DNA of 23,230 bases, from IMG/VR virus record IMGVR_UViG_3300030109_001961, positions 289-23,518 of that record; one strand, 5' to 3'. Numbering within the stretch: the first letter of the stretch is position 1; each line of letters opens with the position of its first letter. The DNA comes from a virus. Below the pieces are notes generated by a model. That model did no database searches. It saw only the letters and a program-made list of their open reading frames with translations, and was not told the DNA's origin. The translations under genes and the position numbers were made by a program. This document shows, piece after piece, positions 2,945 through 7,257 of the stretch.

Positions 2945-3313
2945 TTAAGCTACTAACTTTTGGAATAGCTTACTCTTGAATGGAACGTACCAAGTGTTTG
3001 ATACTCTAGGCTTACCTTTTCTATTGTAAGCATGGAAAGAGGAAAACCTAGAACCAAAGTTAAACCTAACTAATGGCTCACCACTAATGCCACCATAACC
3101 TTTGCGAATAAACCAACCTTTTTCTTTTATTTTGTTGGCATCACCTTGATAACGAAATGGCTTGTAGCCTTTGTGAAATAGAGATAGAAATTTGAAAACA
3201 ACTAAAGTCAAAACTATTTTGATTGGTGTCAATCCACCTCTTAACTCTAAACCTTTTTCAGTAGGAATAAAACCATTGTTTTCTTCTATCTTATCAAAAT
3301 TAAATATAATCAT
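2945..3313 (-). CDS. Hypothetical protein with one membrane segment
   Basis: A 122-residue protein starting MIIFNFDKIEENNGFIPTEK, with GGAG nine bases before the ATG. One hydrophobic segment, PIKIVLTLVVFKFLSLF (about residues 30-46), is probably a membrane helix, though lysines border it. The C-terminal half is basic and aromatic (KGWFIRKGYGGISGE, then SNTWYVPFKSKLFQKLVA). It is the first full gene after the promoter at 3426-3454, and its ATG overlaps the stop of a 15-codon reading frame in the leader. No family recognised. Confidence 0.75.
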   Translation of the reverse strand: MIIFNFDKIEENNGFIPTEKGLELRGGLTPIKIVLTLVVFKFLSLFHKGYKPFRYQGDANKIKEKGWFIRKGYGGISGEPLVRFNFGSRFSSFHAYNRKGKPRVSNTWYVPFKSKLFQKLVA

Positions 3314-3357
3314 ATTAAATCTCCATTAGTTAATTGTTGGTAACTAGGTAAGTTCAT
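3310..3357 (-). other. Possible leader peptide (15 codons) coupled to the downstream gene
   Basis: An ATG at 3357 opens MNLPSYQQLTNGDLI and stops in a TGA that overlaps the ATG of the 2945-3313 gene (ATGA). The start codon lies exactly in the three-base loop of a hairpin TAAGTT-ATG-AACTTA. No Shine-Dalgarno is obvious. Position and overlap suggest a translated leader controlling the next gene; a chance frame of this length cannot be excluded. Confidence 0.35.
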
Positions 3358-3418
3358 AACTTAATTGTTAGACACTTTTCGTCAATGTAACCACATTGCT
3401 TATCGTTGCACCTAGTTA
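3341..3418 (-). ncRNA. Predicted structured 5' leader RNA (three-way junction)
   Basis: The minus-strand transcript should begin at about 3419. A perfect nine-base-pair outer stem joins 3418-3410 (UAACUAGGU) to 3349-3341 (ACCUAGUUA). Inside are two perfect hairpins: CAAUGU-GGUU-ACAUUG (3398-3383) and UAAGUU-AUG-AACUUA (3363-3349, sharing one base with the outer stem). The stretch between them includes ACGAAAAGUGUC. The fold ends just before the ribosome binding site of the 2945-3313 gene. I do not recognise a known riboswitch class; the hammerhead core CUGAUGA is absent. It may be a cis-regulatory leader or a 5' stabiliser. Confidence 0.5.
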
Positions 3419-3425
3419 TATATAT

Positions 3426-3454
3426 TTTGTATCATACTTTTAAAACATTGTCAA
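3426..3454 (-). promoter_or_regulatory. Leftward sigma70-type promoter of the left arm
   Basis: Perfect TTGACA at 3454-3449, a 17-base spacer, then TACAAA at 3431-3426 (four of six consensus bases), followed by an AT-rich discriminator. The first bases TTGACAATGTTTT match the promoter at 6245. Transcription would begin right at the outer stem of the structured leader and run left through 3313. Confidence 0.65.
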
Positions 3455-3497
3455 CTACTATTTTTTTAATCAATAAAATCAATGGGTTAGTGTCCGT

Positions 3498-3661
3498 CAG
3501 TATCAGTCTTCGTCATACATTTTTTTGTTCCTGTTTCGTTCTCTTGGGTAAGTGTGACATTTTTGCAACAGTATCAGTCTTCGTCAGTATCCGTCCTCGT
3601 CTGACCGTATGTTCACGTTTTGTTCTTTGCCTTATTCTGTTCACGTTTTGTTCTTTTCATA
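3498..3661. repeat. Cluster of repeated boxes upstream of the leftward promoter
   Basis: This gene-free region holds three kinds of box. Box C (CAGTATCAGTCTTCGTCA) occurs exactly at 3498-3515 and 3569-3586, with a diverged copy at 3585-3602, so the last two are in tandem with a 16-base step. Box B (TGTTCACGTTTTGTTCT) occurs exactly at 3610-3626 and 3638-3654, with a 14/17 copy at 3526-3542; on the minus strand it contains GAAC twice, 11 bases apart. Box A is the 21 bases at 3550-3570. Boxes A and B recur in inverted orientation at 6448-6506. They look like binding sites of a regulator or replication protein. Confidence 0.7.
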
Positions 3662-3694
3662 AATAAAAAAAAGCTATCAAATAAATGATAGCTT
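3661..3694 (-). terminator. Intrinsic terminator of the AT-rich cassette
   Basis: On the minus strand AAGCTATCA, a six-base loop and TGATAGCTT form a perfect nine-pair stem (3694-3671), followed at once by a run of T residues ending near 3661. It lies 25 bases after the stop of the last cassette gene (3719) and should end the leftward transcript that begins near 6210, separating it from the 3454 promoter. Confidence 0.85.
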
Positions 3695-3718
3695 ATAAAG
3701 TTTAAGGATTTAAAAAGT

Positions 3719-3898
3719 TTAATTATTTTGAATTAATGTAGCTATTGTATTTCTTAATTCAATTAAATTAACTAATTCATTTTTATTAATTTCTAATTTC
3801 ATTAATTCACTATTTTCTAAATTAGTTATTTCTTTATTTAAAGAATAAAATATTAATTTAGCTTTATATTCATTTAGTTTTAAATTTAAATCTTTCAT
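3719..3898 (-). CDS. Small hypothetical protein of the AT-rich cassette
   Basis: A 59-residue protein, MKDLNLKLNEYKAKLIFYSL through IATLIQNN, starting at the ATG at 3898 after AAAGGATTAAATAAA, the start signal shared by the cassette genes. It is rich in Leu, Asn, Lys, Glu and Ile and almost free of Gly and Pro, consistent with an all-helical, possibly coiled-coil protein. It is the last cassette gene before the terminator. Function unknown. Confidence 0.65.
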   Translation of the reverse strand: MKDLNLKLNEYKAKLIFYSLNKEITNLENSELMKLEINKNELVNLIELRNTIATLIQNN

Positions 3899-3911
3899 TT
3901 TATTTAATCCT

Positions 3912-4769
3912 TTATAAGTTAATTACAAATTTGTTATTATTTAAATCTTTATTATTGCCTTTATAACGCAAACCAACAATAACATTTTTATCATCTAAAA
4001 ATCTTAAATCATGTAAATCGCCATCTATTACTTTTTTATTGTCATAATATTTAGGCAATTTGTCATTACGTTTTACATTAAAAACATATGCTTTATTATT
4101 AGATATATTTTTTATAACATCTTTATTCAATTCATTTCTAGAAATAGTTAAATGATAATTGCCCATATGTTTTATATTTCTATTTAATATTTTAGTATAA
4201 TCATAAAATTGAATATCATTAAACATATTTAAAATATCTTTATTAATCTTTTCGTGTTTAATATCTGATAAAACATTTAATCTAATACATAATTTTACGT
4301 TATCTAATTTATTAACTTTATTTTTATGTAAATTAATTTCTTGAATTAATCTATTTTTAAATTGAGTTCTATATTCAAAATATAAAATAGTTCTTATTAT
4401 TCTAGCTTTTAATACCATATGAATATTATTTTTATTAAGCATATGTTTTGCCCCATGTCCTGTAAAATTTAAACATGACATGCCACATTCTATACTTGCA
4501 TTGGGGCAAGTGTTAAATCCTGATATATAAGATGGGGCAAGTTGTAATCCAATATTATAATATTCATATTTATTGCCCTTTTCTAATTTTGCATTTTTAG
4601 TCAATAGCTTGGGCAATTTGCCCCATATTAAAAAACCTTGTTTATTTGTAGCATTTTTAATTTGTTCATATGCCAATTTTCTATGGTATAAAATAAAGCT
4701 ATCATTATTAAAATGATTTTTTAAATAATTGTTTGCGTGTTTCTGATCTTCTAAATATTGCTTATTCAT
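3912..4769 (-). CDS. Gp88-like conserved phage protein with CxC cluster
   Basis: A 285-residue protein, by far the largest gene of the cassette. Conserved-looking blocks in order are FNTCPNASIECGMSCLNFTG (Cys88, Cys95, Cys99; C-x6-C-x3-C), RLNVLSDI at 163-170, FYDYTK at 188-193, NYHLTISRNE at 204-213, VIDGDLHDLRFLD at 247-259 and IVGLRYKG at 264-271. I recognise this order from a widespread phage family often listed as gene product 88 (first named in mycobacteriophages), of unknown function. The cysteines suggest a metal site. The sequence is unusually AT-rich, with Asn/Lys/Ile replacing residues elsewhere. GGATTTATAAAAATG precedes the start. Confidence 0.7.
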   Translation of the reverse strand: MNKQYLEDQKHANNYLKNHFNNDSFILYHRKLAYEQIKNATNKQGFLIWGKLPKLLTKNAKLEKGNKYEYYNIGLQLAPSYISGFNTCPNASIECGMSCLNFTGHGAKHMLNKNNIHMVLKARIIRTILYFEYRTQFKNRLIQEINLHKNKVNKLDNVKLCIRLNVLSDIKHEKINKDILNMFNDIQFYDYTKILNRNIKHMGNYHLTISRNELNKDVIKNISNNKAYVFNVKRNDKLPKYYDNKKVIDGDLHDLRFLDDKNVIVGLRYKGNNKDLNNNKFVINL

Positions 4770-4785
4770 TTTTATAAATCCTTTT

Positions 4786-4971
4786 CTATTTTTTAACTAG
4801 TTTTAATTTACTTTTCATTAAACTTTTAAATGCATTATCTAATAAAACATCTAAATCTTTTTTATGAATTAATATTTTACCATGTTTAATGTCTTTATCT
4901 ATTGCCATTATAAATTCATGTTTATTACTATGATTAATTTTATAATTTTTATTGTATACACTATAATTCAT
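4786..4971 (-). CDS. Small hypothetical protein of the AT-rich cassette
   Basis: A 61-residue basic protein beginning MNYSVYNKNYKINHSNKHEF and ending LMKSKLKLVKK. It has no membrane segment; the second half looks helical. The ATG at 4971 overlaps the TGA of the upstream gene (ATGA) and follows GGATTTAATAAA, the shared cassette start signal. Not related to any family I know. Confidence 0.65.
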   Translation of the reverse strand: MNYSVYNKNYKINHSNKHEFIMAIDKDIKHGKILIHKKDLDVLLDNAFKSLMKSKLKLVKK

Positions 4972-5174
4972 TTTATTAAATCCTTTTCTAGTTTATTGTT
5001 AAATTCATTTATTAATATTTCATTTTCTATATTATCTAATTCAATTAAATTGTCAATGCCATTTAATATATTATTTTCTTCACTAGGTTTATTAAATATT
5101 TCTATTAAATGATTTACGTTTTTAATAGGTTTATTATTATATTTTATTTCTTTATTGTTATATGTTAAATTCAT
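4968..5174 (-). CDS. Small hypothetical protein of the AT-rich cassette
   Basis: A 68-residue acidic protein, MNLTYNNKEIKYNNKPIKNV to FNNKLEKDLIK. Its last codons (EKDLIK) are themselves the AGAAAAGGATTTAATAAA start signal of the next gene, and its TGA overlaps that gene's ATG. The middle, LIELDNIENEILINEF, is likely helical. No known family; its position in a uniform array of start signals supports translation. Confidence 0.65.
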   Translation of the reverse strand: MNLTYNNKEIKYNNKPIKNVNHLIEIFNKPSEENNILNGIDNLIELDNIENEILINEFNNKLEKDLIK

Positions 5175-5176
5175 TT

Positions 5177-5488
5177 TTATAAATCCTTTTCTAATCTATT
5201 TTTTAAATTATCTATTAGTTTATTTAAATATTCATTTACTAAACTAAACTTATATTTTGCTATCTTTTCAAATTCTTCAACTTCATAATCATATGAAATT
5301 TTTAAATAACTGCATTGTACTTTAAAACTATTATTATAATAATCTGATAAAGACAAACTTTTATTAAACATTTTATCAAAATTCTTTTCATTAAAATAGA
5401 TTTTAAATATATCTTCAAATTCTTTTTGAATGTAATTAAAATTATCATTTACTTTTTTAAATTGTTCTATTTCATATTTATAATTCAT
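5177..5488 (-). CDS. Helical hypothetical protein of the AT-rich cassette
   Basis: A 103-residue protein, MNYKYEIEQFKKVNDNFNYI to LKNRLEKDL, rich in Phe, Tyr, Lys and Glu with a regular helical pattern. It shares the MNY start residues with the 4786-4971 product and the LEKDL tail with the product of 5697-5948. The tail is explained by the overlap with the AGAAAAGGATTTATAA start signal of the next gene. Single cysteine in VQCSYLK. Function unknown. Confidence 0.7.
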   Translation of the reverse strand: MNYKYEIEQFKKVNDNFNYIQKEFEDIFKIYFNEKNFDKMFNKSLSLSDYYNNSFKVQCSYLKISYDYEVEEFEKIAKYKFSLVNEYLNKLIDNLKNRLEKDL

Positions 5489-5502
5489 TTTATTAAATCC
5501 TT

Positions 5503-5694
5503 TTATTTTTTATCTAAATTAGTTATTGTTTGTAAAATTACAATTACTGAAAATAAAATAAATATTGTTGCTGTTGTTGCGATTAACTTTTCATTTAATG
5601 TCATTAAATTAATTGTTGTTGTATTACATAATCTAAATAAATTAAAACCTGTTATTAAATAAATTGTTGCTATTGTTAATTTTAAATATGCCAT
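5503..5694 (-). CDS. Small membrane protein with two helices
   Basis: A 63-residue protein with two hydrophobic segments: LTIATIYLITGFNLFRLC (about 6-23) and LIATTATIFILFSVIVILQT (about 37-56), joined by a short polar loop TTTINLMTLNEK and ending NLDKK. A hairpin in the inner membrane is likely. It is the only membrane protein of the cassette. Two-helix holins or superinfection-exclusion proteins have this architecture, but nothing specific supports either. Starts after GGATTTATAAAAATG. Confidence 0.65.
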   Translation of the reverse strand: MAYLKLTIATIYLITGFNLFRLCNTTTINLMTLNEKLIATTATIFILFSVIVILQTITNLDKK

Positions 5695-5696
5695 TT

Positions 5697-5948
5697 TTAT
5701 AAATCCTTTTCTAAATTGTTAATTGTTGTTGTTAAACTTAAATAATAATATAATATATCTAATTCTTTTTTAATACCATTATTAGATAAATAATTATAAT
5801 CTATTTTCTTTTTTAATTCATTTACAGTTTCAATTAAACTGTTTTCATTTAATTCTATTAACTTTTTTAAACTATCATTAATTCTTAATAATCTTTCATT
5901 TTCTATTATTAATTCTTTTTTACTTAATTTATTTTCTATTACTAACAT
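5697..5948 (-). CDS. Coiled-coil-like protein of the AT-rich cassette
   Basis: An 83-residue protein starting MLVIENKLSKKELIIENERL at the ATG at 5948, which follows AGAAAAGGATTTAATATA; an upstream ATG at 6029 lacks this signal and overlaps the preceding gene. Heptad-like Leu/Ile spacing through about residue 50 (RINDSLKKLIELNE) suggests a coiled coil. The C-terminal NNLEKDL is encoded by the next gene's start signal. Function unknown. Confidence 0.65.
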   Translation of the reverse strand: MLVIENKLSKKELIIENERLLRINDSLKKLIELNENSLIETVNELKKKIDYNYLSNNGIKKELDILYYYLSLTTTINNLEKDL

Positions 5949-5976
5949 TATATTAAATCCTTTTCTATGTTTAAAA

Positions 5977-6180
5977 TTAAAATTCAAAATCAATAAATAC
6001 TTTTTTACTAGGTTTAACAAATCTTTCACTATTCATGTCATGCCATTTAGAAATAGAATATTCATTATAACCTTTTAAATAATGATTAATATAATAAACT
6101 GTATTGCTATTTTCATTTAATTTGAAATATTTAATATTAAGTTTATTTATATTTCTTATTTCAGTATATTGATTATTCAT
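5977..6180 (-). CDS. Small hypothetical protein, first gene of the AT-rich cassette
   Basis: A 67-residue protein, MNNQYTEIRNINKLNIKYFK to SKKVFIDFEF, with the aromatic stretch TVYYINHYLKGYNEYSISKW. It begins after AAGGATTTAATAAA, about 30 bases from the predicted start of transcription, so its leader is very short. It ends 28 bases before the next gene, the widest gap inside the cassette apart from the gp88-like region. No family recognised. Confidence 0.65.
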   Translation of the reverse strand: MNNQYTEIRNINKLNIKYFKLNENSNTVYYINHYLKGYNEYSISKWHDMNSERFVKPSKKVFIDFEF

Positions 6181-6216
6181 TTTATTAAATCCTTAATTTG
6201 TTAATTTTATAATTAT

Positions 6217-6245
6217 AAATTACTATGTATAAAAAACATTGTCAA
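6217..6245 (-). promoter_or_regulatory. Leftward promoter of the AT-rich cassette
   Basis: Perfect TTGACA at 6245-6240 with TAATTT 17 bases on (6222-6217); a perfect TATAAT at 6217-6212 would need a 22-base spacer. The start TTGTTGACAATGTTTT is almost identical to the promoter at 3454. It lies 37 bases upstream of the first cassette gene. Confidence 0.55.
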
Positions 6246-6371
6246 CAAGTTTTTTTATATGGTTATAGTTTTTTTATGTAAATAAATATAGATATATATT
6301 TCATACATAATCTTTTACTCTATAAACATTTTTATATTAACCTAGTTTAATGAATACATATTAATCTATTT

Positions 6372-6388
6372 ACTGTTATGATAACAGT
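6372..6388. promoter_or_regulatory. 17-base perfect palindrome, operator-like
   Basis: ACTGTTAT-G-ATAACAGT is a perfect inverted repeat with one central base, in an otherwise AT-rich gene-free stretch about 130 bases upstream of the cassette promoter. The size and symmetry suit a dimeric repressor or activator. No second copy was found in the window by eye. Bases 6181-6448 contain no other gene that I can see. Confidence 0.45.
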
Positions 6389-6447
6389 TTATATAATTCT
6401 TTTAATCCTTATTATACAACAAATAATCTTAAAAATGTTACAAACTG

Positions 6448-6506
6448 TATGAGAAGAACAAACCATGAACAAATTCTGACCGAAGTGTTGCAAAAATGTC
6501 ACACTT
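6448..6506. repeat. Inverted copy of boxes A and B upstream of the rightward promoter
   Basis: Bases 6486-6506 are the exact reverse complement of 3550-3570 (21 of 21, box A). Bases 6448-6470 match the reverse complement of 3639-3661 at 20 of 23 positions and contain a box B copy (6455-6471, 15/17 to the left consensus). A short TGACCGAAG between them resembles a fragment of box C. The two regions therefore form an inverted pair around the AT-rich cassette, each facing its own outward promoter. Confidence 0.75.
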
Positions 6507-6538
6507 TATTTTGCCTACACGCCACAGCCACTAGGGGG

Positions 6539-6594
6539 GTATACGTATACGTGTATGGACTATGCAACAGATGGGATAATAGGGTGGTAACCAC
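6539..6594. promoter_or_regulatory. Two short palindromes upstream of the rightward promoter
   Basis: GTATACGTATAC (6539-6550) is a perfect 12-base palindrome directly after a run of six G. GTGGT-A-ACCAC (6584-6594) is a second inverted repeat. Both lie 70-130 bases upstream of the TTGACA at 6666 and are more GC-rich than their surroundings, which suits protein-binding sites. No function is proven. A weak 53-codon frame (6449-6610, plus) crosses this stretch. Confidence 0.35.
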
Positions 6595-6665
6595 AGGTAT
6601 GAACAGTTAAATGCTTAAAAACAGTGACATATATACAACACTAGTAATATATTTTTATTAGGGGG

Positions 6666-6694
6666 TTGACAAGGCACATAAAACCGGGTATAAT
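6666..6694 (+). promoter_or_regulatory. Perfect-consensus rightward promoter of the right arm
   Basis: TTGACA (6666-6671), a 17-base spacer and TATAAT (6689-6694) match the sigma70 consensus at every position and in spacing. It is the only gap promoter ahead of the long rightward gene array beginning near 6813. Such a strong promoter would need regulation to be timed, and the boxes upstream and repeats downstream are candidate sites. Confidence 0.85.
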
Positions 6695-6705
6695 TACATA
6701 TATTA

Positions 6706-6763
6706 ACCATTTAGATGTTACACTTAAATATATAATAACACTTAAATACTACATTTAAATGGT
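6706..6763 (+). repeat. CACTTAAATA repeats inside an inverted repeat in the leader
   Basis: ACACTTAAATA occurs exactly at 6720-6730 and 6738-6748 (18-base step), with diverged versions at 6750-6760 (TACATTTAAAT) and near 6798. They are enclosed by ACCATTTA (6706-6713) and TAAATGGT (6756-6763), a perfect eight-base inverted repeat. They lie just downstream of the predicted transcription start and could be operators or an RNA structure in the leader. Confidence 0.5.
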
Positions 6764-6821
6764 AAAAATAAGGTAGTTAATATAAATATACCTATTCGTA
6801 TTTAAATAAGACTTGACTTTC

Positions 6822-7028
6822 GTGAAAAAATCAGTAAAACTAATAGCATCGGAAAATGCAACGAAAGATGTATATCAATCGCTGCACAGATATGGGGATA
6901 TTCGTAATGTCCACATACCCCATTCGGCTGTGTACTATGTTCGTTCCCTTATTTATAGGGATACAGGTGTAAAATACACTCTAGACCATGTAGAAAAGGC
7001 TATGAAAGAAGAAGGATGGACAGATTAA
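6822..7028 (+). CDS. Hypothetical protein, first gene of the right arm
   Basis: A protein of 68 residues if GTG at 6822 starts it (VKKSVKLIASENATKDVYQS); a TTG at 6813 would add three residues, and neither has a clear binding site. The end reads TGVKYTLDHVEKAMKEEGWT. The Lys-rich N-terminus and helical C-terminus (YTLDHVEKAMKEEGW) could form a small DNA-binding fold, but no family is recognised. Located directly after the strong promoter and its repeat-rich leader, so it may be an early or regulatory protein. Confidence 0.6.
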   Translation: MKKSVKLIASENATKDVYQSLHRYGDIRNVHIPHSAVYYVRSLIYRDTGVKYTLDHVEKAMKEEGWTD

Positions 7029-7038
7029 AGGTATAACA

Positions 7039-7257
7039 ATGGCTAAAAAAGATAAAATAGGTATTATGATAGCTGTAGGTAAGCTAAAAGACAGCAAAAA
7101 AACTAAAATGGCTTATGGTGGCATGGCAAATGGTAAAAAACACATGTATTTATCCGAGGGTAGCTTTGTAAAAGATAATCCCGGACTAGAAGCACTTAGA
7201 AAAAGTGGACCTAAAGGACTAAAAGCATATAATACTATTACAGGCAAAACAGACTAG
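7039..7257 (+). CDS. Small basic hypothetical protein
   Basis: A 72-residue protein, MAKKDKIGIMIAVGKLKDSK to AYNTITGKTD, after AAAGG. The stretch MAYGGMANGKKHMYLSEGSF resembles the short Gly/Lys motifs found in many small proteins of marine phages. It is positively charged with no membrane segment. The stop TAG shares a base with the next GTG start. Possibly a virion or DNA-associated protein; that is inference from charge and context. Confidence 0.7.
   Translation: MAKKDKIGIMIAVGKLKDSKKTKMAYGGMANGKKHMYLSEGSFVKDNPGLEALRKSGPKGLKAYNTITGKTD

Follow-up and report, generated by a model that had tools for sequence, protein, structure and literature searches.

A probable bidirectional early/late control region with LexA-type boxes and a widely shared dyad operator around an AT-rich cassette in an HMO-2011-type phage

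The window, the whole stretch of 23,230 nucleotides analysed here, belongs to a 23.5-kb linear virus fragment whose portal gene is 74–76% identical in DNA to those of two phages of marine Alphaproteobacteria, HMO-2011 and CRP-1, and by this portal comparison its portal/terminase block is homologous to that of HMO-2011-type phages. Genes left of 3313 are read leftward and form the early arm, which includes a cell-wall hydrolase and nucleotide genes, and genes right of 6813 are read rightward and form the structural (late) arm. Both outward promoters that an earlier note on this DNA had placed at 3454 and 6666 are present as sequence matches, a leftward one for the early arm (TTGACA-N17-TACAAA, 3426–3454, minus strand) and a perfect one, kept in almost every relative, for the late operon (TTGACA-N17-TATAAT, 6666–6694, plus strand). 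The first gene of the rightward operon (6813–7028, plus strand) gave a structure prediction of poor quality.

Between the arms sits a leftward AT-rich cassette (3719–6180, minus strand, from ORFs and composition; GC 0.15–0.24), which consists of small ORFs, all leftward, and a GP88-family gene (3912–4769, minus strand; Pfam E 9e-31), the only recognisable gene in it. A predicted intrinsic terminator (3671–3694, minus strand), absent from the earlier note, closes the cassette, and a similar stem-loop is found in the closest relative (L030), whose GP88 is 92% identical. The GP88 model has a pLDDT of 88, and no fold match to it was found in the PDB; its conserved motifs are YDYTK, NYHLTxS, DGDxxDLRFLD and a cysteine cluster. 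Most cassette ORFs (4764–6192) share a near-identical start leader of the AAAGGATTTATAAAATG/AGAAAAGGATTTATAAAAATG type. No known repressor family, including CI/Cro-like proteins, was recognised among the cassette ORFs, some of which are small and unassigned.

Repeated boxes flank the cassette. Positions 3550–3570 and 6486–6506 are exact reverse complements over 21 nt, the longest inverted repeat of the window and longer than any in first-order shuffles (18 nt, mean 14, for 3000–7200; 17 nt for the whole window), and the repeat is conserved; the earlier note was right about this pair and about the 20 of 23 matches between 3639–3661 and 6448–6470. It had also described two further boxes on the left in three copies each. 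One of these, with GAAC at an 11-base step, is real and corresponds to GTTC-N7-GTTC at 3527, 3611 and 3639, but it is the same element as the 3639/6448 pair and hence no additional type. The other is indeed present as CAGTATCAGTCTTCGTC at 3498, 3569 and 3586, the last with two mismatches, in the repeat CAGTATCAGTCTTCGTCA (copy 1 at 3498–3515, plus strand; copies 2 and 3 at 3569–3586 and 3586–3601). In the closest relative the corresponding positions are taken by another repeat, GAGGAGTACT, as would be expected of a site for a phage-specific protein.

The 21-mer is part of a 22-base near-dyad, AGTGTTGCA-N4-TGTCACACT, which we call B. By dyad match, the left copy (3551–3572, minus strand; core 3554–3569) has one mismatch and the right copy (6484–6505, plus strand) none. 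A third, weaker B (6621–6642, minus strand; three mismatches), absent from the earlier note, was equalled in none of 40 shuffles, coincides with B sites in relatives and lies 45 nt before the −35 element of the late promoter. The 21-mer has 27 exact matches in other IMG/VR contigs (reversed control, 0), most of them with unrelated flanks and a few closely related to each other, and the dyad pattern AGTGTKRCA-N4-TGYMACACT matched at least 120 stretches (reversed pattern, 3). Since symmetric B variants are partly hairpin terminators, subsequent counting was restricted to GTTGCA-N4-TGTCAC, the asymmetric core; 59 secondary sites give the consensus A[G/C]TGTTGCA[A/T]AAATGTCACA[C/G]T. Only 12 of 83 distinct core sites fall inside ORFs of at least 90 aa, compared with 60% of random points, and the 47 with classifiable neighbours lie between divergent (22), co-directional (23) or convergent (2) genes. 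B is probably an operator to which a dimeric regulatory protein would bind.

Among cultured phages, B occurs in Ruegeria phages DSS3P8 and V10 and in Roseobacter phage CRP-6, where about ten tandem cores at 16–17-nt steps occupy one intergenic region that separates the late genes, read leftward, from the end of the record; a search of phages found no second cultured phage with such an array. Several relatives lack B, among them HMO-2011 and CRP-1, which carry no core site, so B does not characterise the HMO-2011-type group as a whole. In 289 alphaproteobacterial genomes we counted six cores with an AT-rich spacer, near chance (control, 0), and a 19-mer had six matches in 257 Gb of genomes. B therefore occurs in bacterial genomes at about chance level, and a general host regulon box was rejected. 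A Pho box (TGTTGCA-N4-TGTCACA direct repeat) was also rejected, because the conserved feature is the pair of inverted half-sites and because L030 has B in inverted orientation with respect to its LexA boxes; a CRP/FNR operator (TGTGA-N6-TCACA or TTGAT-N4-ATCAA) does not fit either, B being at best TGTGA-N8-TCACA. Literature searches on the B sequence found no published description; it occurs in many unrelated phages. Separately, a 285-kb virus record carries twelve identical GTGGCAGAAATGTCAC sites across 14 kb (G319:C1:139490-153750).

The second kind of box, GAAC/GTTC pairs with an 11-base step, equals GTTC-N7-GTTC, the already published LexA (SOS) motif of Alphaproteobacteria (PMC8565304, PMC3323433). 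Four copies lie around the cassette where 0.02 are expected in 4.2 kb: GTTCCTGTTTCGTTC (3527–3541, plus strand), GTTCACGTTTTGTTC (3611–3625, plus strand), which L030 carries as an identical inverted 15-mer, a second copy of GTTCACGTTTTGTTC (3639–3653, plus strand) and GAACAAACCATGAAC (6456–6470, minus strand), all by sequence match. In a search of 41 alphaproteobacterial genomes with GTTCNYGTTTTGTTC, the neighbours of the LexA-box 15-mer included, as named only from our reading of the ORF translations, lexA (L262), dnaE2 (L260, L271), imuA (L267) and a splB-like gene (L264, L265, L273). Thus both sequence features of an alphaproteobacterial LexA box, the direct repeat and copies beside SOS genes, were found. 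Around B in other phages we counted 57 boxes with the N7 spacing, compared with 2, 0, 3, 0 and 0 for N5, N6, N8, N9 and N10; because overlapping intervals count some boxes repeatedly, the evidence is this contrast and not the N7 count. Two points weigh against the control-region reading given below: only some B sites (11 loci) have LexA boxes beside them, and those of the window overlap no recognisable promoter. We infer that host LexA binds the phage GTTC-N7-GTTC boxes.

B sites are placed at preferred distances from promoters. When relatives were compared by anchoring on the first late gene, a perfect TTGACA-N16/17-TATAAT promoter preceded it in 20 of 30 upstream regions and a B-like site in 19 of the 30, with the start of B 56–59 nt from the −35 element in nine, 45–49 nt in three (including the 6621–6642 site of the window), 68 nt in one and 77 nt in one. 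An unanchored scan of all core sites gave distances of 54, 56, 58, 58, 58, 59, 68, 69 and 112 nt, drawn from relatives of the window and three other families (L020, L145, L123), and nine promoters were found within 22–130 nt of core sites where 1.7 were expected. Tested for a 10.5-bp period (Rayleigh test), the 13 lineage values, which are not fully independent, gave R 0.66 (p ~0.003). The centre of B lies near −82 and the remaining spacings differ by one turn, an arrangement known from class I activators, and the clusters at 54–59 and 68–69 nt point to helical phasing like that of an activator site. Against an activator role, the perfect consensus late promoter should need no activator. At the leftward early promoter, the distance from B to −35 is kept in L030 (119 nt, 118 nt in the window). 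The late promoter is also preceded by another conserved element, GTTAACCAC..TAACTG (L049, L052, L056, L057, L059; window ~6591–6606), and GTTAACCAC resembles a CtrA half-site.

In an unrelated phage (L258), a single divergent gap holds, in order, a leftward terminase gene, a leftward-facing B, five LexA boxes, a rightward-facing B and a rightward early gene; the window repeats this order and these orientations around a central cassette. L030 retains the cassette end, the terminator, the LexA boxes and B, and in three relatives (L051, L056, L029) B sites stand at either end of AT-rich cassettes that differ from this one. Where relatives have no AT-rich cassette, B is retained only ahead of the late operon, and L052 and L058 have no B. 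The contig carrying L030, L184 and L251 (3300029448_000003, 110.9 kb) seems to contain two related HMO-2011-like genomes end to end and is perhaps an assembly chimera. From these layouts, we read the 6621 site of the window as belonging to the late promoter, the 6484 site to the cassette and the 3551 site to the early arm.

What the sequences show directly is what the boxes are, that they are conserved and that they are phased to promoters; we consider it probable that they are the operators of a phage bidirectional early/late control region with LexA boxes, B and a lodged cassette. Each outward half would comprise GTTC-N7-GTTC boxes for the host LexA repressor and the near-dyad B for a dimeric regulator, upstream of the promoter leading out. 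The GP88 cassette would be an extra leftward transcription unit lodged between both halves, which is why the operators would now look like an inverted pair 2.9 kb apart. LexA boxes and B could then jointly time both arms, by DNA damage and a second signal. The suggestion in the earlier note that a divergent control region had been split by the cassette gains support from the cassette-free B-LexA-B gap of L258, from the boxes beside the cassette in L030 and from the other cassettes between B sites in three relatives. Its proposal of sites for one regulator of both arms is supported as to control of both arms, but there are two kinds of site and not one, host LexA boxes and B. The search in related phages that it called for found the boxes again, including in the cassette-bearing L030.

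An alternative, also raised in the earlier note, is that an initiator binds the B sites as iterons of a replication origin, which the inverted pair would mark. The tandem array of CRP-6 speaks for this, and in the Bealeia plasmid pBealeia1 (L274, 5500–6450) B (6001–6022) forms the axis of an imperfect inverted repeat of about 1 kb; that repeat lies in a long stretch devoid of genes, close to a PriCT-2 gene, and is possibly an origin. On account of these two cases we leave the origin reading a low probability, but promoter phasing is the better fit: one to three well-separated B sites are the rule in most phages, these are phased to promoters, just 2 of the 47 classifiable sites lie between convergent genes, and clustering of ORFs from 14 B-bearing genomes and records returned only replication, nucleotide and structural genes and no shared regulator or initiator gene. 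Even less probable is a mobile or invertible cassette with the B sites as its ends or targets, as the different genes between B sites in the window, L051, L056 and L029 might suggest. Here the earlier note finds no support, since the cassette is read in the same direction, away from the late operon, in five lineages (window, L030, L029, L051, L056). Most B sites have no cassette and occur singly or in arrays in many phages, no recombinase is present among the cassette ORFs, and 80 GP88 loci are essentially without B, which also led us to reject GP88 as the partner of B. The cassette-free layout of L258 and the other cassettes of the relatives argue for a bidirectional control region and not an invertible segment.

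We regard a packaging (cos/pac) element near terminase genes as very improbable; B lies directly upstream of a likely terminase small-subunit gene in L125, L226, L230 and L240, but in the window the terminase is 7 kb away, unrelated phages use one sequence, genomes hold several copies and B is phased to promoters. Least credible of all is an RNA hairpin or terminator, for although folding is possible in the palindromic variants (GTTGCA-N4-TGCAAC), some of which have T runs after them, the dominant form, GTTGCA opposite TGTCAC, has mismatches within the stem and makes up 61 of 128 among the matches listed (16 expected if variants were equal, loci fetched with the 21-mer adding to the excess), and only 2 of 47 sites have convergent neighbours.

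Returning to the control-region reading, unrelated phages of Alphaproteobacteria may share the operator AGTGTTGCA-N4-TGTCACACT, read by a single putative regulator that together with LexA sets the early/late programme, the regulator being either a host product or a phage protein that has moved from lineage to lineage; we put this forward tentatively, at slightly below even chances. Pfam searches of two sets of smaller phage proteins for a B-binding protein found no shared classical repressor. A protein of about 200 aa adjoins B in L014, L022, L023, L025, L027, L162 and L196 and is absent from the window; its copy in L280 (L022 group) has weak ParB-like similarity (E 0.06).

HMO-2011-type phages are abundant in the sea and their regulation is almost unstudied; the text of the main comparative paper on them contains neither 'LexA' nor 'promoter'. 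The operator pair, the published motif of a host stress repressor plus B, makes damage sensing by these phages directly testable and lets a second signal be asked about, with B as bait for its regulator.

In the lambda immunity region, a leftward gene block set between two outward promoters has inverted operators, OL and OR, on either side. The window likewise has inverted operators around a leftward block and outward promoters; unlike in lambda, no CI/Cro-like gene is recognised in the cassette, and B is common to unrelated phages and not phage-specific. As in class I CRP-type activation, B is a 22-bp dyad whose centre lies near −82 and whose other spacings differ by one helical turn, whereas its TGTGA half-sites are 8 bp apart and not 6. 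CtrA-box clusters occupy divergent gaps in phages of Alphaproteobacteria (PMC9437464), so that boxes for a host regulator are grouped between divergent phage arms in both cases; the window, however, has LexA boxes and B, with only the CtrA half-site-like GTTAACCAC. The Bacillus GIL01, Vibrio CTX and SPC32H phages have host LexA operators in phage gene promoter regions (PMC9437464), and LexA-type boxes in such regions are common to them and the window, whose boxes differ in being of the alphaproteobacterial GTTC-N7-GTTC type and in being accompanied by a second operator, B.
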